Shown here: in pieces, positions 37,278 through 56,050 of the stretch | Position numbering within the stretch: position 1 is the first letter of the stretch | How the letters are laid out: each line of letters starts with the position of its first letter | Origin: Planctomycetota bacterium | Lineage (GTDB): Bacteria; Planctomycetota; B15-G4; JADJEK01 | Length of the DNA stretch: 56,119 nucleotides | Direction of reading: 5' to 3' | Assembly: GCA_016213895.1 (NCBI GenBank) | Contig: JACQZJ010000132.1 | Location: forward strand, 1-56,119 | Position numbers and translations under genes: made by a program | Notes under the pieces: model-generated | Told to the model about the DNA's origin: nothing | Seen by the model: only the letters and a program-made list of their open reading frames with translations | Databases searched by the model: none

Positions 37278-38747
37278 CTACGGGAAGGGCTCGATCTCCT
37301 CCTTCACCTTCGCGGACGCGAAGGGCCCCACCTGGTAGGTGCACACGACGACGTATTTGGTCTGCGCTTGCGGGCCAGCCCATGTGGCCGAGCAGGTGAA
37401 GCCTCAGCCGTACTCGAAGGCGCCGCGCGCGGCGATCTTCCCGGCCGCGGACAGGATCACGTAGGCCGGCGCCTTGGGCAGGTGCGTCTTCACCGCGTCC
37501 ATCTCGATCTTGGTCGCGCTCCCCGACACGCGCCTCAGGTCGGTGACCACCTCCTGGGCGCTGCCGTCGACGCGGAACTCGACCGGCACGGACTCGGGCG
37601 TGCTGCCCGCGGACTCCTCGTAGGCGCGCCGCGGCACGCGCGCCGCTGGCGCGAAGGGCTCGCCGAAGACCACGGTCGTGGAGCTGCCCGCCGTTGCCGT
37701 GAAGAACGGCGTGCGCGGCGTGGCGGCCGCGGCCACGCTCCAGACGTCGCCCTCGGCGTCGGCACGCAGCAGCCGGTAGCCCGCGACCCGGTACGTCCCG
37801 GGCGGGACGACCGCGGCGCGGCTCGGCTGGAGCATGACCGCGTACGTCCCGCCGTCCTCGGAGGCCAGGAACAGACGCTCGCAGTCCTGCGGGAGGTCGA
37901 GCGCCGCGGTGGCGCCGGCGTACGGCTCGAGCACGAGCGTCTTCGCGGCCGCGTCGATCCTCAACTGGAACAGGCTCTTGCCGAGCGCAAGCACGTTCCC
38001 GAGTGAGCAGAAGTCGCTCGCCTCGACCGCGCCCGCGGTTGTCAGGTAGAGGAAGTCGCCCGTGGCAGAGATGACCTGGACGGGCTCCTCCTCGGCCACC
38101 GCGCAGCGGGCCACGTCGTCGAAGCGCCCGTTGACGTTCGCGTCGGCGAGCAGCAGGCGGCAGACGCCGCCGCCGAACGCCACATCGCCCGCGTAGCAGC
38201 AGTTCGTGGTGACGTGCAAGGATAGGTCCGCGAGGTCGAGCGGGTCGCTCAGCTCGCCCCCCTCGAGCAGCGCGCTCGAGGAGAGTCCAACGCGCAGGCT
38301 GTAGTCCGCGCGCCCGGAGCCAGCACGCAGCGTCAGGTCGAGCGGCGGCGGCTCGAAGAAGCCCGGCAGGGCTTCGGGATCGGCGCTCTTCAGCGCCGGG
38401 TCATTCGTCAGGTCGCCGTCACCGCCGGCGTCGCAGTAGAGGACGCTGAAGAAGGGATCGCCGGCCTGCGCGCGGTCGAAGACGAGCAGGCGCTGTTCCC
38501 CAGCCAGCTCAAGGAGCGCGAACAGGGGCTGCTTGCTGGTGAGAGGCGGCAGCTTGAAGTCTCCGCGCGGCACACTGGTCGCGAGGTCCTCGACGAAGAG
38601 GGTGGAGCGCGGCAGGAACGCCTCGTCCTCCTGCTCGCCCGCCGGGTAGCGCACGTACTCCAGGGACACTTCCTCGGCGGCGGCCGGCGCAACGAGCGCG
38701 CCCGCCAGGAGGCCGGCAAGCGAGACCCGTCTCCACGCTCCTGTCAT
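37278..38747 (-). CDS. Secreted selenoprotein of an undescribed family, paralog of 48148-49602
   Basis: Read through the UGA at 37406-37404 this is a 489-residue exported protein with Sec at residue 448. It has a signal peptide (LAGLLAGALVAPAAA) and the same domain as the gene at 48148. Shared features are an EVSLEY start of the mature part, two acidic Ca-loop-like motifs (GGDGDLTNDPAL and DANVNGRFDDVARC), and a C-terminal GAFEYG-U-GFTCSATWAGP. The frame then continues for 41 codons to TAG at 37280-37278, with YVVVCTYQVGPF matching the paralog. A hairpin follows the UGA at the standard distance. The ATG at 38747 has an AGGAG site 5 bases upstream. Function is unknown; the Sec with Cys four residues later suggests redox chemistry or metal binding outside the membrane. 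Confidence 0.88.
37373..37389 (-). promoter_or_regulatory. Predicted SECIS of the 37278-38747 selenoprotein
   Basis: On the minus strand GGCCAC (37389-37384), loop ATGGG and CTGGCC (37378-37373) form a 17-nt hairpin of five Watson-Crick pairs closed by a C-C mismatch at the loop. It starts 14 nt after the UGA, as in the other selenoprotein genes here. The coding constraint on the conserved tail may explain the imperfect last pair. Confidence 0.72.
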
Positions 38748-39337: not shown

Positions 39338-39432
39338 GGAGGTGAGCGGGGCCCGGTGGCTCCCGCGGCCTTCAAAGCCGTCGTATCGTCGCTTAGACGC
39401 TAGGTGGGTTCGACTCCCATTCACCTCCGCCA
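39338..39432 (+). tRNA. selC: tRNA-Sec (anticodon TCA)
   Basis: The acceptor stem has 8 pairs, GGAGGTGA (39338-39345) with TCACCTCC (39421-39428), then discriminator G and encoded CCA. The anticodon loop CTTCAAA (39370-39376) carries TCA at 39372-39374, which reads UGA. The D arm, a long variable arm (CGTC...GACG), and a 5-bp T arm around TTCGACT complete the 8+5 acceptor/T geometry of bacterial tRNA-Sec. It lies 16 bases before selA on the same strand. It proves that UGA can be decoded as selenocysteine in this genome. Confidence 0.97.
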
Positions 39433-39447
39433 CCTTCTCATGCACTC

Positions 39448-40863
39448 ATGACACGAGATTCCTCTCCTCAAGACGGCGGCGACGACACGCGGCGCGGGCT
39501 GATCCCGGTCTACGCCGTGCTGGAGGAGCCCCGCATCCTCGAGCTGATCGCCGAGTTCTCGCGCCCGCTGGTGGTGGACGCCATCAAGGCCGCCCTCGAC
39601 GAGTTCCGCCGCGCCTTCCGTCCCGGGGCCGCGCTGCCGGCCATGGACGAGGTCGTGGAGCGCGTGCGCCACGTCGTCATCGATGAGGAGAAGGACCGCC
39701 TGCGGCCGGTGGTGAACGCCACGGGCCTCATCCTGCACACCGGGCTCGGCCGCGCCGTGCTGCCGCCGCGCGCCGCGGCCGCCCTCGCCTCGCTCGACCG
39801 CTGCTGCAGCATGCAGATCGACATCGAGACCGGGAAGCGCGGCAAGCGCAGCTACATGACCGAGCGCCTGCTCACGCGCTTGACCGGCGCCGAGGCGGCG
39901 ATGATCACCAACAACAACGCCGCCGCCACGCTCCTCATCCTCTCCGCGCTCTGCACCGGCAAGGAGGTCATCGTCTCGCACGGGCAGCTCATCGAGATCG
40001 GCGGCTCGTTCCGCCTGCCGGACTGCATCCGCCAGAGCGGCGCCATCGCCGTGCCGGTCGGCACCACGAACCGCACGCACCTGCGCGACTACGAAGAGGC
40101 GCTCTGCGAGCGGACGGGCGCCATCCTGCGCGCCAACCCCAGCAACTACCGCGTGGTCGGGTTCGCCAAGGAAGTGTCCATCGCCGAGCTGGTCGGGCTG
40201 AAGAAGAAGCGGCAGGTGATCGTCATCGACGACGTCGGCTGCGGCGCCCTGGTCGACACCGAACGCTACGGCCTGCCGAAAGAGCTGACCGTCCAGGAGA
40301 GCATCGCCGCGGGTGCGGACGTCGTCTGCTTCAGCGGCGACAAGCTGATCGGCGGGCCGCAGGCCGGCATCGTCGTCGGCCGCGCCGAGCTGATCGCGCG
40401 CATCAAGAAGCACCCCTTCGCGCGCATGATGCGCGTGTGCAAGCTCACCGACCTCGCACTCGAGCAGACGCTGCGGCTCTTCCTCGACGAGGAGACTCTC
40501 CTCGAGAACCACCCGACCCTGCGCATGCTGGCGGCCGACCCGGCCGCGCTGCGCAGGAAGGCGCAGCGCTTGAAGAAGCGCATCGACGCGGACCGGCTGC
40601 CCCTCCAACTACGCGTCAAGGAGGACGAGAGCGCCGCCGGCGGCGGCTCCATGCCCGCCACGCCGCTCAAGACCTACGTGCTGGCGGTGCAGAGCGCGGT
40701 GCACTCGTCCGACCGCCTGAGCCAGCTCCTGCGCCGGAACGAACCGCCCGTCATCACGCGCATCAGCGAGGCCGAGGTGATCATCGACATGCGCACGCTC
40801 CTCGACGGCGAGGAGAAGCTGGTGCATGAGGCCCTGCGGCGCGTAGCGCGCGCGGAGTCGTGA
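39448..40863 (+). CDS. selA: L-seryl-tRNA(Sec) selenium transferase
   Basis: SelA (471 residues) converts Ser-tRNA-Sec to Sec-tRNA-Sec using selenophosphate. The N-terminal domain carries VNATGLILHTGLGRA near residue 90, which is the family signature. The PLP lysine is in CFSGDKLIGGPQAG near 300. MITNNNAAATLLIL and VIVIDDVGCGAL belong to the fold-type I aminotransferase core. It lies directly after the tRNA-Sec gene and 43 bases before selB. SelD, needed to supply selenophosphate, is not in the window. Confidence 0.96.
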   Translation: MTRDSSPQDGGDDTRRGLIPVYAVLEEPRILELIAEFSRPLVVDAIKAALDEFRRAFRPGAALPAMDEVVERVRHVVIDEEKDRLRPVVNATGLILHTGLGRAVLPPRAAAALASLDRCCSMQIDIETGKRGKRSYMTERLLTRLTGAEAAMITNNNAAATLLILSALCTGKEVIVSHGQLIEIGGSFRLPDCIRQSGAIAVPVGTTNRTHLRDYEEALCERTGAILRANPSNYRVVGFAKEVSIAELVGLKKKRQVIVIDDVGCGALVDTERYGLPKELTVQESIAAGADVVCFSGDKLIGGPQAGIVVGRAELIARIKKHPFARMMRVCKLTDLALEQTLRLFLDEETLLENHPTLRMLAADPAALRRKAQRLKKRIDADRLPLQLRVKEDESAAGGGSMPATPLKTYVLAVQSAVHSSDRLSQLLRRNEPPVITRISEAEVIIDMRTLLDGEEKLVHEALRRVARAES

Positions 40864-40906: not shown

Positions 40907-42898
40907 ATGAAGCACCCGCCCCCTGGGTTTCTGCGCCAGAAGATGGACCCCGAGGTCCTGCTGATGGTTTGCACGGCGGGGCACGTTGACCACGGCAAGA
41001 CCAGCCTGGTCAAGACCCTGACCGGCTGCTCCATGGACCGCCTCAAGGAGGAGCAGGAGCGCAAGCTGACCATCGAGCTGGGCTTCGCCCCTTGCGTGCT
41101 GGGGAGCGGCGACGTGTGCGTGGGCATCGTCGACGTCCCGGGCCACGAGAAGTTCGTCAAGAACATGGTCGCGGGGGTGTCCGGAATCGACATGACCATC
41201 CTCGTGGTGGCGGCCGACGACGGCGTCATGCCCCAGACCGTGGAGCACTTCCAGATCCTGGAGCTGCTGGGCGTGCGCCACGGGATGGTGGCCCTGACCA
41301 AGATCGACCGCGTCTCGCGCGAGCGCGTGGCGGAAGTGAACGGCGAGATCCGCGAGTTCCTCGCCGGCTCCTTCATGGAGAAGGCCACGATCTGCCCGGT
41401 CTCGTCCGAGACCTGGGAGGGCTTCCCGGAGTTCTACGACGCCCTGGTGCAGGAGGTCAAAGGACTCTCGCGGCGGCGCTCGCTCGGCGTGTTCCGCATG
41501 CCGGTCCTGAACTCGTTCACGCGCCAGGGATTCGGCTCCGTGGTCACCGGCATCCCGGTGGACGGGACGATCGAGGTCGGCCAGGCGCTGGAGCTGGTCC
41601 CAGGCGGGCAGAAGGGCAAGCTGCGCAGCCTGCAGCGCTTCCTCAGGGACGCGACGGCCGGCGGCTTCGGCCAGTGCCTCGCGCTCAACATCCCCGAGTT
41701 CGGCAAGACTCCGCCGGAGCGCGGCCAGGTCATCTGCGCGCCCGGCTGCCTCAGGGCCTGGCAGTCCCTGCACCTGCGGCTCAAGGTGGTCGCGGGCATC
41801 GACAGGCCGCTGAAGAACGCCGAGCACGTCAAGTTCCACACCGGCACGAGCGAGGAGTACGGCCGGCTCTACCTGCTCGAGGAGAAGATGCTCGGCGAGG
41901 GCCAGACCGGCCTGGCGAACATCGTGCTCGCCGCGCCGCTCGCGGTCGCCGTGCACGACAAGTTCATCATCCGGCGGCCCGCGCCCGCGGTCACGGTGGC
42001 GGGCGGCGAGGTCATCGGCATGTCGCCGTCCGCGGTCAAGGCCTCTCGGCGGCAGGCGGTGGCGCGGCTGCGCACCTACGTCGAGTTCTTCCAGGACGCG
42101 AGCCTGGCCGGCGCCGAGCGCGTGGAGCGCGAGATCGAGTACTTCCTGTGCAGCGAAGGAGCGACCGGCGCCAGCCTGCGCGAGATCGCGCGCGGCACGC
42201 TGCTCGCCGACGAGGCCGTGCGCGAGACCGTCACGCGCCTGGAGGAAGCGGGCCGGGTGCTGCGGCTCGCCCCGGACAGCATCATCCACCGCTCCAGCTA
42301 CGACGCGAGCCTCGCCGAGGCGGCGGCGCGCGTGCAGCGGCACGTGGCCGAGGGCAAGGTCCTGAGCCTGGCGCTCGCGGACCTGCGCCGCGGGCTCTGC
42401 TGGCCGGCCGCGCTCTGGAGCCGCGTCGAGGAGGACCTCGCGAAGCAGGGGCTGGTCTCGCGCCGCGGGGACCGCGTGGTGCTCGAGAGCGCGGCCGGCG
42501 GGCTGAACGACAAGGACCAGGACCTGGTGCAGAGGATCGTCGCGACCTTCGACGAGCACGGCTTCAAGTCGCCGCGGCCGGACGAGCTGCCCGACCTGCT
42601 GCGCGCGCCTGAGGAGCGCGTCGAGCGCCTGCTCGACTACCTCTGCGCCAAGAAGGAGCTGTTCCGCCTGGCGAAGAACGTGGTCCTGAGCCGCCGCTGG
42701 CTCAGGAAGGCGGAGGAGCTGGTGGTCCAGGTGGTCCAGGAGAAGGGCGTGCTCGATTCCGCCGACTTCAAGTACCATATCGACTCGACGCGCAAGTACG
42801 CGCTCGCCATCCTGGACTACCTGGACTCGCGCAACGTGACAGTGCGCAGAGGCAACGACAGACACCTGGCCGCTGACTACCGCAGGAACTTGACTTGA
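40907..42898 (+). CDS. selB: Selenocysteine-specific elongation factor SelB
   Basis: SelB (663 residues) brings Sec-tRNA-Sec to UGA codons that have a SECIS hairpin. The GTPase motifs are TAGHVDHGKTSL near residue 22, DVPGHEKF near 80 and TKID near 130. The C-terminal 230 residues contain winged-helix domains that bind the SECIS loop. The family usually begins just before the GTPase loop, so an internal ATG at 40964 is a possible alternative start. It forms a tight group with tRNA-Sec and selA. Confidence 0.95.
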   Translation: MKHPPPGFLRQKMDPEVLLMVCTAGHVDHGKTSLVKTLTGCSMDRLKEEQERKLTIELGFAPCVLGSGDVCVGIVDVPGHEKFVKNMVAGVSGIDMTILVVAADDGVMPQTVEHFQILELLGVRHGMVALTKIDRVSRERVAEVNGEIREFLAGSFMEKATICPVSSETWEGFPEFYDALVQEVKGLSRRRSLGVFRMPVLNSFTRQGFGSVVTGIPVDGTIEVGQALELVPGGQKGKLRSLQRFLRDATAGGFGQCLALNIPEFGKTPPERGQVICAPGCLRAWQSLHLRLKVVAGIDRPLKNAEHVKFHTGTSEEYGRLYLLEEKMLGEGQTGLANIVLAAPLAVAVHDKFIIRRPAPAVTVAGGEVIGMSPSAVKASRRQAVARLRTYVEFFQDASLAGAERVEREIEYFLCSEGATGASLREIARGTLLADEAVRETVTRLEEAGRVLRLAPDSIIHRSSYDASLAEAAARVQRHVAEGKVLSLALADLRRGLCWPAALWSRVEEDLAKQGLVSRRGDRVVLESAAGGLNDKDQDLVQRIVATFDEHGFKSPRPDELPDLLRAPEERVERLLDYLCAKKELFRLAKNVVLSRRWLRKAEELVVQVVQEKGVLDSADFKYHIDSTRKYALAILDYLDSRNVTVRRGNDRHLAADYRRNLT

Positions 42899-42941: not shown

Positions 42942-43784
42942 ATGATGATCCAGAAGACCAGGAGGTGGGTGCAGACCTTCTCCCTCCTCCTGCTGCACAG
43001 TTCCTGGAGTCCCGCCCTCCAGCTCAAGTGGTTCTGCGCGCCGGTCTTGAGCTGCCACTCCTGCGCGCTCGCCTGGTTCGCCTGCCCGATGGGCATCTTC
43101 GTGCACTACTCGGGCTGGCACGTCTTCCCCTATCTGACGCTCGGGCTCTTCCTGCTGCTGGCCGCGCTGCTCGGCCGCCTGCTGTGCGGCTGGGTTTGCC
43201 CCTTCGGCTTCCTCCAGGACCTCTTGCACAAGATCCCCACGCCCAAGCTCGCGTTGCCGCGCTGGACCTCGTACATCAAGTACCTGGTGCTTTTGCTCAC
43301 GATCTTCGCCCTGCCCTGGTTCTTCGGCGCCGAGACTCTCTGGTCCTTCTGCCGCGTCTGTCCCGCCTCCGCGCTCCAGGTCACGATCCCGAACCTGATC
43401 GGCGGCGGCGCGATCAGCCTCGCCACGGCGATCAAGCTGGGCGTGCTCGTCCTCGTGCTGCTCCTGGTCCTCTTCTTCGAGCGCGCCTTCTGCCGCGTCC
43501 TCTGCCCGCTCGGCGCCATGCTGGCGCCCTTCAATCACGTCAGCTTCTGGAGCGTCAGCCCGGCCAAGTTCGAGTGCCTCAAGTGCGAGAAGTGCAACAA
43601 GGTCTGTCCCATGGAAGGGAAGCCCTCCGAGCGCTTCCGCCAAGGCGTTCCCGCGAGCCGCGCACTCGAGTGCGTGGTTTGCCACGAGTGCCAGACCGTG
43701 TGCGTGCAGCGGGGCCCAAAGCCGCGCACGCCGCGCAAGAGACCTGAGCAACCGCCGGCCGCCGCGCCGCCGAAGACCCCGTAG
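42942..43784 (+). CDS. NapH/polyferredoxin-type membrane iron-sulfur protein
   Basis: The 280-residue protein has about four membrane segments (for example FPYLTLGLFLLLAALLG and KLGVLVLVLLLVLFF). CGWVCPFGFLQDLL and FCRVLCPLGAML are the CxxxCP motifs of the NapH/YccM/RdxA family. Ferredoxin-like clusters CLKCEKCNKVCP and CVVCHECQTVC follow in the C-terminal cytoplasmic part. Members pass electrons across the membrane to periplasmic enzymes. The gene follows selB by 43 bases and may be co-transcribed, but has no clear ribosome-binding site. A Pro-rich tail closes the protein. Confidence 0.85.
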   Translation: MMIQKTRRWVQTFSLLLLHSSWSPALQLKWFCAPVLSCHSCALAWFACPMGIFVHYSGWHVFPYLTLGLFLLLAALLGRLLCGWVCPFGFLQDLLHKIPTPKLALPRWTSYIKYLVLLLTIFALPWFFGAETLWSFCRVCPASALQVTIPNLIGGGAISLATAIKLGVLVLVLLLVLFFERAFCRVLCPLGAMLAPFNHVSFWSVSPAKFECLKCEKCNKVCPMEGKPSERFRQGVPASRALECVVCHECQTVCVQRGPKPRTPRKRPEQPPAAAPPKTP

Positions 43785-48058: not shown

Positions 48059-48147
48059 GATCAACCTCGCGTCCTCGCGGCCGCCACGAGCGGACAGGCT
48101 CGCGGCCTGGTAGGATCGATCGCCCCTCGCAGAAAGGAGGCTGGTTG

Positions 48148-49602
48148 ATGACATTTGGATTTCCGGTTCGGTCTCTCGCGCTGCTCTTCCTTCTTTGCGG
48201 TCTCGCGCCTGCAGAGATCCTGGAGGTGCCGCTCGAGTACCGGCAGAACTGCGACGACAAGGACGCAACGCATCCCTGGGGGAGCGCCTACGCGCTGCCC
48301 TCGCCCGACTGTCCCGGCGGCGACTGGAAGCTGCCGGAGTTGACGGGCGCGCGGCCGCTCTACGCGACCCTGACCCTCGGCGAGACCGACTTCCTGGTCG
48401 TCCTCGACCGCGTCGCGGAGAAAGACGGTTTCTACAACCGCATCCGCTTCGACCGGAACGACAACGGCGACCTCACGGACGACCCGGTGCTCCTGGGCGA
48501 TCTAGCCCCCTTCGGAGACATCAAGCAGTACTACGTCTCGTTCGACGACGAGGTCTCGGTCGAGTACCGCCTCGGCGGCACCGTCCTGCCCTACCGGCTG
48601 GGCTTCAGCCTCCAGGGGCAGGACCAAGAGGAAGGCGCCGGAGACGACGCCCCGCGCTTCATCTACTTCGGCGTCGCCGCGGCCTGCCACTATGCGGCCT
48701 CGTTCACGCTGGACGGCGCGTCCTACCAAGTCATGCTCGGAGACGGCGACTGCAACGGCGCCTTCTCCAACACGGCGCGCATCGACGAGAACATGCACCT
48801 GTCCGCGGACCAGCCGATCTACGCCCAGGGCGATAGCCTGTACCTCACGGCCGAGAAGAAGTTCTCGCGCGGAGACGACTTCCTGCTGGGCGATCTCCTG
48901 GTCCTCGGCGAGAGCATCTTCACGGTCAAGGTGGACACGGCCGCGCGCACGCTCACGCTCGCGCCGGCCCAGGGCGACCTCGTGCCCCTCAAGCTCTCCC
49001 AGGCGCCGGAGCGCCTGCTCCTGCTCGAGCGGAGCTTCGCGCACTGCGTCATGATGCACCGGCCGGCCATCGCCAGGATCCCGGCCGGCGACTGGCGGCT
49101 GCTCAGCTACGCGCTGCTCCGCACTGGCAAGGAAGGCGACCTCTGGCGGCTCGAAGCCGCCGGCAGCGGCGCGACGCCCTTCGTGAGCGCGGCGCCCGGC
49201 GCCGAGGCCCTGCTCGAGTTCGGCGAACCCTACCTGCCCCTGGCGCAGGTTTCCGAATGGTCGCTGCAGAACATGCAGGAGAACGGCGCGACCGAGGCGT
49301 CGCTCGCATTCAACGTCCAGGGACGGGTGCAGGAGTTCCTGACCGACCTCCGGCGCCTCGCGGGCGACAAGAGCTCGATCGCTCTCTCGCGGAGCAGCAC
49401 GGACCGCCCGGCGGAGCCGACCTACACCATCGTCACGGCATCGGGAGAGAATGTCGCCGAGGGGACCTTCGAGTACGGGTGAGGCTTCAGCTGCTCGGCC
49501 GCATGGAGCGGCCCGAAGAAGGGCGTGGACTACGTCATCGTCTGCAAGTACGAGGTCGGCCCGTTCGAGACCAAGATCGAGAAGCGCTCGTTCCGCTATT
49601 GA
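48148..49602 (+). CDS. Secreted selenoprotein of an undescribed family, paralog of 37278-38747
   Basis: Read through the UGA at 49480-49482 this is a 484-residue exported protein with Sec at residue 445. The start has AGGAGG 7 bases upstream and a signal peptide (LALLFLLCGLAPA). The mature part has RFDRNDNGDLTDDPVL and DGDCNGAFSNTARI, both like Ca-binding loops, at positions equivalent to the paralog. It ends GTFEYG-U-GFSCSAAWSGP, followed by YVIVCKYEVGPF, then UGA at 49600. Of the first 28 residues after the Sec, 17 are identical to the paralog, including both cysteines and the Trp. A perfect SECIS-type hairpin follows the UGA. Read as a stop, the 39 conserved codons would be unexplained. 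Confidence 0.9.
49497..49513 (+). promoter_or_regulatory. Predicted SECIS of the 48148-49602 selenoprotein
   Basis: GGCCGC (49497-49502) pairs perfectly with GCGGCC (49508-49513) around the loop ATGGA. The stem begins 14 nt after the UGA, the same distance and the same 6+5+6 geometry as in the thioredoxin-fold selenoprotein gene at 18801. Confidence 0.85.
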
Positions 49603-52531: not shown

Positions 52532-55500
52532 TCAGAGCGACGAGAGCACGATGAAGCGCTGTTCGCTCTCCGCCGTCACGGCGAAGCGCAGGGGCGGCTC
52601 GGCCTCTCCCTTGCCGAGCGCCCGGCCCTGGTAGATCCCCTCCGGCAGGGCGAGGCGCAGCACGTCGTTGGTGGAGCGGAACACGTGCCGGTGGACCAGG
52701 CGCCCGTCCTCGGCGCTCACCTCGTACGGCACGAACGACACGCCGGCGCCCAGGAAGGCGAACGTGACCGCGCCGCCTGGAACGAGCTGGATGGCGCCGG
52801 AGAGGTCCTGATCGCCGACCTCGACGAGCATTCCGTTCGGCGGCGCCAGGCCCGGGACATCCACCTCGGGCCGGTAGCTCCCGGGCCCGAGGTGCTCGAA
52901 CGGGGCCATGCCCGCTCCGTCCGTGTAGCTGCTCGCCGGGGCCGCGATCGGGCCCTCCTGCCAGGAAAGGGGCGCCAGCGGGATCAATCGAATGGGCAGC
53001 CCAGCCAGGGGCTGGCTCAGGGAGGAGGTCAGAGTGAGCTGAGCGCTCACCCCCTCCCCCAGGCTGACCGGATCGACCGATGTCGTTCGGCCACTACGAA
53101 CGAAAGCGCCGCTCGTGCCGGGAGCGCGGCCTTGCGCCGCGACCAGCACGCGCAGCATGCGACCCGCTGGCGCCAAAGGGAACTCGAATGCGTCCGCGGC
53201 GACCTTGCCCGCGATCTCGCCGGCAAGCGATCCGTCGCCGTTCAATACCAGGAGCACGGCCCGGAAGTCGGTGACCGGGTCTCCGGTCAGGGCCGACACC
53301 ACGCGGCCGCGCACGCTCGTGCCGGGCGTCATCCCGGCCCACTCCGCCGGCGAGGACACGAGGAACACCGTGTTCTCCGCGGGGCCAGGACGCATGCGCG
53401 CGCACGCCCTGCGCCCGCCGCTGCGCTCCGCCACGGTCACGAGCAAAGGGGCGTCCGGCAGGCCGCGCAGGAGCAGCCGGCCGTCCGCGCCGGTCGCGCC
53501 CTGCTCGAACCAGAGCTCGTCGCTGCTGCGCCCGGCGCCCGCTGGCGCGAAGAACGCGCAGAGCCTCTCGTGCTCGCGCTCATCGACGAGGTAGGCCTTC
53601 ACCAGCGCCCCGGCCACGGGCAAGGCGTGCTCGTCGAGGATGCGCAGCGCGAGCGCTTCGCCCCGCTCGAGCTGGCACTCGACCTCGATGGGACCGGCCG
53701 GCGGAGGAACGAGGTCGAACGTCGCGAGGGCGTACCCCTCGGCCTTCACGCCGATGCGCAGCGGGTGCGCCTCGTCCGCCTCGAGGTCGAAATCAACGGA
53801 CGCGGCGCCGCGCGCGACCTGGATCCACTTGGGCCGCTCGGCGCCCGCGGCGGCCACGAGGAGCGCGGCGGGCAGGGGATCGCCACCCTTGCTCAGGATC
53901 CGGCCCTCCACGCGCACCCTGCCCCGCAGACGCAAAACCACGTCGCGGGCCTCGTCGCCCGGGGCGAGGGCCATGGGCGCGGACAAGCCGCTTTGCCCCG
54001 CGGCGTCCTTCGCCCGGACCACGACGTCGCCAGCAGGAGGCGCATCCGCGAACGAGAAGCGCCCCAACTCGTCGCTCCTCGTTCCCAAGGAGAACAGGTT
54101 GACACCTCCGGGGAGATCGCGGATCCGGCCAACGGAGGCGAAGACGTGCTCGCGGTCCTTGCTCTCGTGCCGGGAGAGCGGCGTTTCCAACCAGACGTCC
54201 GCTCCCGGCACGAGGCGGCCTTCCGCGTCGAGCACCGCTCCCGCGACGCGGCAGCCCCTGGTCAGCGCCACGGAGCGCACGAGCGTGCCGGCGCGCTGCG
54301 CGACGTGGAGCTCGCCGGCGTGCGGCGCCATGCCCTCCTTCGCCACGAGAAGGCGGTAAGGCGAGACAGGCAACCCCTCGACCAGGGCCACGCCGCGCTC
54401 GTCGCTCAGCGCCAGCGCGTACAACGGAAAGCGATCCAGGGCCGGCCGGCCGTTGTACGTTCCCATCGGAGCAATGCACAGCACCAGGGCGCCGGCGAGC
54501 GGCAGGCGGGAGAATGCGTCGCGAACTGTCACTTCCAGGTCCGCACCGCCGCCGATCTCGATCTCGCGGTCGTTCCACGCACCCGGTTCCAGGCGCAAGG
54601 GCCACAATCCGGCGACGCTCGAGTCGGGCCGCTTCACGCGCAGCAGACACTGCGCGGGAAGCGTCGCCGCAAAGGAGAAGCGGCCATCCGGGCCGGTCAC
54701 TGCCGCCTCGGGCGCGAGGAAGTGGGCGAGCCGGTCAACGCACTCCACGCGTGCACCTTCCACGGCGCTGCCCTCCCGCCAGCGCACGGCGCCTTTGAGC
54801 AAGGCCGGCGGGTCGAAGCGGATCTCTTCCTGGCGGCCGTCCTTGCGCCCCAGGCCCTCCTCCTCGGCGAAGATGATGCCGGGCGGCAGGTCATCCGGGA
54901 CCGTGAACGCGCCGCCCGGTCCGGAGACGGTCTCGAAGAGCAGGGGATCTCCAGCCTGCGCGCAGGTCGAGACCACGGCGACCCTCGCGCCCGGAACGGG
55001 CGCGCCCGTGTGATCGCGCACCACGCCCCTCCCGCCCGCGACGGCGCCCCCCTCCGTGCTTTCCTCCGCCTGCGGCGCCGCCTCGTCGCGGATCTCGAGG
55101 CCGGCCGCGCCCGAATCCGCGGGCGCGGGCGCGGCCGCGCCCCCCCCTCCCGCGCCGCGCGCCGCGTCCGGATCGGCCTCGGGCAGGAAGTTCCAGATCA
55201 GCGGCGCGAGCACCACCAGCGCCGCCACCCAGATGAACTTCTTGAGGAGCAGCAGCCCTCCGGCCAACGACGCCCCTCCTGCCAGGGAGGGAGCCGCCGC
55301 CTCCACGGCGCGCCGCAGGACGGCGCCGCGCACCGCGCCCAGGCCCCTCGGCTCGATGGCCACGAACAGGCTGCCGGCGAGAAAGCCGGGCGGCAGGGAG
55401 CGGCGCAGGAGCCGCAGGCCGCGATCGATCTGCGTGCGCACCGTGTCCACCGACCGGTCCAGCTCGGTTGCTATCTCCGTTCCGCGGCGGCCGTCGAAGA

Positions 55501-55912
55501 GCGGAACGAGCACGTCCCGGTAGTGGGCCGGCATGCGCGACAGGGCGCCGTCCAGCTCCTGGCGCAGTTCGCGCTCCTCGGCCAGCTCAGCCGGATCCGG
55601 AGGCGCCTCCTGGCGCAGCCTTGCGGGATCGGGGCAGCGGCTCGCCCGCCGCCGCGCGGCCTTCACCTGATTGCTGAGGATCCCGACCAGCCAGGGAAGC
55701 ACGTTCTGCTCGTCGTCGAAGCGGGCGGCCCCCTCGATGGCGGCCAGGAAGGTCGCCTGGAGGATGTCCTCGGCCTCGGCCTCGTCGCGCGAGAGATGCC
55801 GCGCCACGCGCATGAGTTCGGGCGCGGTGGCGTCGAACACCTCGGCCAGCGCACCGGGCTCTCCGTGCTTGCGGAAGCGCAGGTACAGCGCGTTCAACTC
55901 CTGGCGATCCAT
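52532..55912 (-). CDS. Membrane-spanning ECF sigma factor fused to a large extracytoplasmic region
   Basis: The 1126-residue protein begins with an ECF sigma factor: region 2 with EAEDILQATFLAAI (about residues 47-60) and region 4 with GTEIATELDRSVDTVRTQI (about 144-162). A membrane helix, KKFIWVAALVVLAPLIWNFL, lies at about 224-243. The remaining 880 residues are repeated carboxypeptidase-regulatory-like beta domains, e.g. GVVRDHTGAPVPGARVAV. If correctly oriented, the sigma part is in the cytoplasm and the repeats outside, so the chain could sense and transcribe in one piece. The ATG at 55912 is preferred over an upstream start at 56044, which would add an unrelated basic stretch. Confidence 0.88.
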   Translation of the reverse strand: MDRQELNALYLRFRKHGEPGALAEVFDATAPELMRVARHLSRDEAEAEDILQATFLAAIEGAARFDDEQNVLPWLVGILSNQVKAARRRASRCPDPARLRQEAPPDPAELAEERELRQELDGALSRMPAHYRDVLVPLFDGRRGTEIATELDRSVDTVRTQIDRGLRLLRRSLPPGFLAGSLFVAIEPRGLGAVRGAVLRRAVEAAAPSLAGGASLAGGLLLLKKFIWVAALVVLAPLIWNFLPEADPDAARGAGGGGAAAPAPADSGAAGLEIRDEAAPQAEESTEGGAVAGGRGVVRDHTGAPVPGARVAVVSTCAQAGDPLLFETVSGPGGAFTVPDDLPPGIIFAEEEGLGRKDGRQEEIRFDPPALLKGAVRWREGSAVEGARVECVDRLAHFLAPEAAVTGPDGRFSFAATLPAQCLLRVKRPDSSVAGLWPLRLEPGAWNDREIEIGGGADLEVTVRDAFSRLPLAGALVLCIAPMGTYNGRPALDRFPLYALALSDERGVALVEGLPVSPYRLLVAKEGMAPHAGELHVAQRAGTLVRSVALTRGCRVAGAVLDAEGRLVPGADVWLETPLSRHESKDREHVFASVGRIRDLPGGVNLFSLGTRSDELGRFSFADAPPAGDVVVRAKDAAGQSGLSAPMALAPGDEARDVVLRLRGRVRVEGRILSKGGDPLPAALLVAAAGAERPKWIQVARGAASVDFDLEADEAHPLRIGVKAEGYALATFDLVPPPAGPIEVECQLERGEALALRILDEHALPVAGALVKAYLVDEREHERLCAFFAPAGAGRSSDELWFEQGATGADGRLLLRGLPDAPLLVTVAERSGGRRACARMRPGPAENTVFLVSSPAEWAGMTPGTSVRGRVVSALTGDPVTDFRAVLLVLNGDGSLAGEIAGKVAADAFEFPLAPAGRMLRVLVAAQGRAPGTSGAFVRSGRTTSVDPVSLGEGVSAQLTLTSSLSQPLAGLPIRLIPLAPLSWQEGPIAAPASSYTDGAGMAPFEHLGPGSYRPEVDVPGLAPPNGMLVEVGDQDLSGAIQLVPGGAVTFAFLGAGVSFVPYEVSAEDGRLVHRHVFRSTNDVLRLALPEGIYQGRALGKGEAEPPLRFAVTAESEQRFIVLSSL

Positions 55913-56050
55913 CGCCCCTTCCTTGACATTGGAGCCGAGAAACCGTTCACGATTTCGGATTCTGTTCGACAAGCGGGCGCGCGCGGAACGCTCTCCTGAC
56001 GCGTCGCCGGTCCTTCCATCGTCCACCTGGGAGCGGTTTCCCACAAGGCC

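Follow-up and report, generated by a model that had tools for sequence, protein, structure and literature searches.

The UGA at 49480-49482 of a Planctomycetota contig is almost certainly recoded as selenocysteine (Sec), judging from the comparison of homologous genes, and that such recoding marks a new family of exported proteins is very probable as well. The group is large, apparently undescribed and common in the Planctomycetota, with almost no cysteine versions. The window, meaning the whole stretch of 56,119 nucleotides that was analysed, holds the gene in question (gene A), a paralog (gene B) and genes for Sec decoding. An initial annotation had proposed Sec recoding in gene A, and homolog comparison supports it. 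It underestimated the finding, since there are at least four UGA members in the genome, at least eight phyla, a linkage to Sec genes and a near absence of Cys homologs.

The in-frame UGA and its tail

48133-48140, + strand: Shine-Dalgarno-like AAAGGAGG, 7 nt 5' of the ATG, from sequence
48148-49602, + strand: gene A, putative exported selenoprotein of 484 aa with Sec at residue 445; stop TGA at 49600-49602; TGA site shared with about 121 homologous genes
49480-49482, + strand: putative Sec-encoding UGA, residue 445, in Y-G-U-G-F-S-C
49483-49599, + strand: tail of 39 codons with partner Cys449, invariant Trp453 and the predicted last beta-sandwich strands (dN/dS, structure)
37278-38747, - strand: gene B, putative paralogous selenoprotein with Sec448; TGA at 37404-37406, stop TAG at 37278-37280

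The gene A frame (48148-49479) stays open for 39 codons beyond the TGA at 49480-49482 and ends at the TGA at 49600-49602, as had been annotated. Gene A alone makes a weak case, since an open tail of this length has a chance probability of about 0.43 at 68% GC and its hairpin is no better than shuffles. One can imagine a scenario where the UGA is a true stop and the tail is open by chance or is a decayed former extension, and both of these observations are in line with it. A single open tail and a single hairpin are uninformative; it is the comparison between genes that decides whether there is recoding.

The tails of genes A and B are identical at 17 of the first 28 residues. This part of the proposed tail motif stands, but the Cys of V-x-V-C-x-Y is conserved only among the closest relatives. 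The host genome has at least four UGA members. Besides genes A and B there is one on contig C68 and another on C20, and the homologous codon is TGA in each. A second genome of the same genus has counterparts for all four, every one with TGA. For three gene pairs between these two genomes the identity is 82, 79 and 64% before the UGA versus 87, 95 and 94% after it. The tails are under strong purifying selection, with a pooled dN/dS of 0.157 (12 nonsynonymous changes over 290 sites versus 20 synonymous over 88; Fisher p 7e-7). A UGA at one conserved site with coding conservation downstream is the pattern of a selenoprotein.

This selection argues against a true stop, and so does a tail motif that recurs in about 121 of the matches listed, not in two genes only. 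None of the listed homologs has TAA or TAG at the site. The predicted structure points the same way. AlphaFold, run with a 69-sequence alignment, gives gene A an all-beta model with pLDDT 89.9 and pTM 0.87. In this model the last beta-sandwich runs from E383 to E483, and three of its strands, mostly with pLDDT above 90, are encoded past the UGA, so a product truncated there would lose strands of a confidently predicted domain. We consider a true stop highly improbable. If the UGA is taken as a stop, these proteins are annotated about 40 or more residues short, and both the active site and the domain's last strands are missing.

Sec genes and the SECIS-type hairpin

39338-39432, + strand: tRNA-Sec, anticodon TCA (ARAGORN; Rfam RF01852, 73.1 bits)
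39448-40863, + strand: selA (TIGR00474, E 1.3e-153, over cut-off)
40907-42898, + strand: selB (TIGR00475, E 3.9e-90, over cut-off)
42942-43784, + strand: NapH/MauN-like membrane ferredoxin, proposed electron donor (Fer4_5, E 3.7e-15); a related gene recurs near family genes
49497-49513, + strand: SECIS-type hairpin of gene A, GGCCGC-AUGGA-GCGGCC, apical UGG (family-wide covariation and codon bias; alone not significant)
37373-37389, - strand: SECIS-type hairpin of gene B, GGCCA-CAUGGGC-UGGCC

A UGA that is read need not be read as Sec. The code could be reassigned, or another amino acid could be inserted by suppression, and the identity of the inserted residue is read from comparison only. Reassignment was rejected, as TGA is an ordinary stop in 9 of the 10 window ORFs checked. 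The Sec genes count against both versions. The window has tRNA-Sec, selA and selB, all three as initially annotated, followed by the NapH-like gene, and two selD genes lie elsewhere in the genome, which completes the set of Sec-decoding genes. One selD (L193, G000:C64:37114-38037) has an in-frame TGA of its own, and the second, on C88, is TGA-free. The same genome also has a second tRNA-Sec match over the cut-off (71.8 bits, G000:C214:11416-11509).

The Sec genes are linked to the family as well as present. There is a tRNA-Sec at 15 of the 115 listed loci, which cover 840 kb and were found by sequence motif alone, where 0.17 would be expected at one per 5 Mb. selB occurs at 13 of the 104 true loci listed, and a NapH/MauN-like ferredoxin (FHCYxCPLxTFACPIG) at 14 family loci or more. 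A tRNA-Sec over the cut-off is found in 47 of 50 carrier genomes versus 274 of 392 genomes of the phylum sample (p 7e-5). A few carriers, such as G061, have no clear tRNA-Sec, perhaps due to incomplete assemblies. A small protein ending in SLCPT also recurs beside tRNA-Sec and the NapH-like gene (L081, L089, L102, L114, L117, L124, L144).

The hairpin had been described as a perfect SECIS-type structure. It does start exactly 14 nt past the UGA, with arms GGCCGC at 49497-49502 and GCGGCC at 49508-49513, but as a single-sequence fold it is not significant: the 43 nt past the UGA show no folding advantage over shuffled copies (z of -1.1 in gene A and +0.75 in gene B). The family tells more. With the first base of the UGA numbered nt 0, the stem joins nt 17-22 to nt 28-33, and the apical UGG is a Trp codon 21 nt past the UGA. 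Over the six core pairs 96% of cells are paired, and pairing is complete in 117 of 132 sequences, versus 92% and at most 96 sequences when synonymous codons are permuted among sequences. The residues encoded by nt 18-20 and nt 30-32 covary as pairing needs (Y-V, L-E, A-G, H-V), with a mutual information of 1.00 versus a null maximum of 0.32; it must be noted that both nulls are guides only, since related sequences are not independent. Arg is CGA in 98 of 109 cases versus 16 of 134 upstream, and Val is GTA in 66 of 90 versus 7 of 179. Compensatory changes and such extreme codon bias argue for selection at the RNA level on a stem-loop 16-37 nt past the UGA, as in other selenoproteins. The RNA hairpin even seems to dictate the protein sequence at the Y-V, L-E and A-G pairs. 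A bacterial SECIS is expected to have a G within the first two loop positions (PMC13188914). Most relatives fit this rule with a UGG loop closed by G-C, and the AUGGA of gene A fits only with an A-A closing the loop.

This selection on the hairpin, the linkage to tRNA-Sec and the Cys found at the codon in a few homologs all count against insertion of another amino acid, which we consider just as improbable as a true stop. With Sec as the preferred reading, SelB, Sec-tRNA and the hairpin past UGA 49480 would insert Sec at residue 445, and UGA 49600 would terminate translation.

Spread of the family and its relatives

An unbiased codon scan with the pattern Y-G-[TGN]-G-[GF]-T-C-x3-W was run over 84,980 genomes for the type 1 family, that of gene A. 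The matches listed are 124 TGA, 5 TGC, 1 TGT and 2 TGG in 115 stretches. The homologous context is absent from all 8 non-TGA matches and from 3 TGA matches. About 121 TGA matches among those listed are real homologs, and none of them has Cys. The TGC, TGT and TGG matches were inspected and are chance matches. The real homologs typically carry SWR[VE]P...GPF past the site, and the N-terminus is signal-peptide-like in those whose start is within the stretch. By record title, the matches listed fall in Planctomycetota (74 loci), Verrucomicrobiota (9), Sumerlaeota (5), Hydrogenedentota (5), Actinomycetota (3) and Omnitrophota, Armatimonadota and Lentisphaerota (1 each), plus unassigned loci; this makes at least 8 phyla, with assignments that are mostly MAG labels. 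The gene A protein has no plasmid match. In the 30- and 69-member alignments only the Y, G, U, G, C and W of Y-G-U-G-x-x-C-x-x-x-W are invariant, and D102 and D199 are nearly so. The two acidic loops that had been named as family marks are therefore real, but they lie in an N-terminal module that also occurs in UGA-free thioredoxin fusions. This module is joined to thioredoxin-like domains, with no Sec domain, in L055 (G000:C70), L056, L024, L025 and L020.

Type 1 is a single branch within a superfamily whose sites are UxxxC, CU and UU. Whole-protein and C-terminal-domain profiles find further Sec arrangements in the same architecture: FPG-x-C-U-G, GC-U-GG, PG-U-GG[YW]C, HWC-U-GG and NT-U-GAL. 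A YG-U-GGG domain also stands behind a cytochrome-like CxxCH segment (L030, L049, L052). A second widespread sub-type, FPG-x-C-U-GxGF...PVAVSVP (or GC-U-GGGF), is exported, about 400 aa long and has no NCBIfam match (L172, L173, L174, L175, L184, L185, L187, L028, L032, L034, L189); its Cys form is seen in L182 and L224. Tandem pairs, in which one member carries a C-terminal multi-helix membrane domain and its neighbour is soluble, occur at L083, L089, L098, L117 and L135.

The search for Cys homologs that had been suggested was run, and they are nearly absent. Among the matches listed for 392 genomes of the phylum sample, the domain profile has about 130 TGA matches versus 7 full-length non-TGA ones. 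This profile scores Sec as Cys, so Cys homologs should be favoured rather than missed. Three of the seven have Cys at or beside the site, and the genome of one of these three has no clear tRNA-Sec. Sec-free relatives of about 700 aa have neither Sec nor Cys there. A stricter DNA pattern, applied to the phylum sample, picked out 9 genomes, of which 1 matched by chance, and it served less well than the profile. Sec/Cys pairs with homologs do occur but are rare: L224 and L182 in other sub-types and L031/L228 in type 1. At L231 (G386:C1:1195500-1198000) and L232 (G322:C29:1-2200) the C-U of relatives corresponds to TGA-TGA (GT-U-U-GSG, AG-U-U-GSA), with the same motif and a hairpin-like sequence downstream; both are possible cases of adjacent double Sec. 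L224 has C-C where relatives have C-U. With the U-U variants this implies that Sec and Cys exchange at both positions of the C-U site. A tandem second copy in L038 (G235:C34:24378-25766) is without Sec and partner Cys (YERSDARGFIWSASW), as if the two had been lost together.

No family in Pfam or NCBIfam passes its curated cut-off for type 1 or the other types, which agrees with the initial view that the family is undescribed. Scattered matches were rejected as the family identity, since they belong to fused ankyrin, F5/F8 and fn3 parts of single members. A PDB sequence search had one marginal match (E 0.029) and gave no family. No description was found in the literature, and a prior naming is possible among the groundwater MAG candidates of Deng et al. 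2026 (Cell Rep). A 2026 catalogue of 119 bacterial selenoprotein families and subfamilies has no entry with the type 1 motif and fold (PMC13188914). The new family is like bacterial selenoproteins generally in its in-frame UGA, downstream hairpin and selA, selB, selD and tRNA-Sec, and many of those have Sec-Cys motifs too. Most characterized selenoproteins are thioredoxin-like and nearly all have Cys homologs (PMC13188914), whereas the new family has an Ig/Fn3-like domain and almost no Cys homologs.

The family escapes the usual searches because it has almost no Cys versions. Selenoprotein discovery leans mostly on Cys homologs. By its authors' account deep-Sep may filter out selenoproteins that lack them, and every known selenoprotein seems to have such homologs (PMC12013277), which would explain why this family was overlooked; about 130 TGA matches versus 7 in the phylum sample is the very blind spot they describe. 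The deep-Sep hypothetical proteins DG (NF049953, GUxG), DW and DF (PMC12013277) are also uncharacterised selenoproteins, and the Sec of DG also follows Gly. However, the new family has not even a weak NCBIfam match to them, and the deep-Sep families are rich in Cys homologs.

Fold and possible function

The C-terminal domain is modelled as an Ig/Fn3-like beta-sandwich with Sec in a loop. Export and fold of the gene A product are predictions. Foldseek found only generic, weak, low-TM matches of fibronectin/Ig type and no thioredoxin fold, so no function is claimed from the fold. The superfamily would offer a non-thioredoxin scaffold for Sec, with new active-site arrangements that include adjacent Sec-Sec.

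We argue, at a confidence a little short of even, that these proteins are exported or envelope selenol oxidoreductases fed by a NapH-like membrane ferredoxin. The proposal comes from context: apparent export, Sec with an invariant Cys, fusions of the N-terminal module to thioredoxin or AhpC-type domains, variants with CxxCH or membrane domains and the recurrent NapH-like gene. The Sec/Cys exchange and the UU variants also support redox chemistry. Sec445 would sit in the sandwich loop with the invariant Cys four residues on (U-x-x-x-C), and U445 and C449 would pair reversibly as a selenenylsulfide in the cell envelope. The ferredoxin beside selAB would reduce it across the membrane, and the reduced pair may act on exported disulfides, peroxides or similar substrates. 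The product of 42942-43784 shares the Fer4_5 domain with NapH/MauN-type ferredoxins and is nearest to that subfamily. Unlike NapH proper it scores 63.6 against a cut-off of 213 bits, and the genes beside it are for Sec rather than for nitrate reductase or methylamine. DsbD takes electrons across the membrane, and both its N-terminal domain and SoxY are exported Ig-like domains with reactive Cys. The new family has no Pfam sequence similarity to either and the fold matches are weak and generic, so this comparison is a lead only.

The main rival is that Sec is real but the domain is no thiol reductase, and serves instead as a covalent carrier of sulfur or selenium or as a soft-metal ligand on an Ig-like scaffold. 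SoxY, which carries sulfur on Cys, is a loose parallel. The fold is Ig/Fn3-like rather than thioredoxin, one relative has a SoxYZ chain among its weak fold matches (rank 50, E 0.086), and C-U or U-U sites could bind a soft metal. By sequence, though, nothing matches Sox or the known metal-binding families, and a Cys invariant at U+4 in type 1 and an N-terminal module fused to thioredoxins fit a reductase better. We think a carrier or ligand unlikely.

The superfamily is a possible reason why uncultured Planctomycetota have kept Sec decoding. At a slightly lower confidence than the reductase reading, this whole exported Ig/Fn3-like superfamily, with its UxxxC, CU and UU sites and its cytochrome-like and membrane fusions, may be near-obligately Sec and make up a ferredoxin-driven selenol relay of a kind not seen before in the envelope, and it may be a main reason for the retention of the Sec machinery in many Planctomycetota and their relatives. 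Elsewhere in the window, a 1170-aa ORF at 52532-56044 (- strand) matches sigma-70 regions 2 and 4 together with carboxypeptidase-regulatory-like domains.
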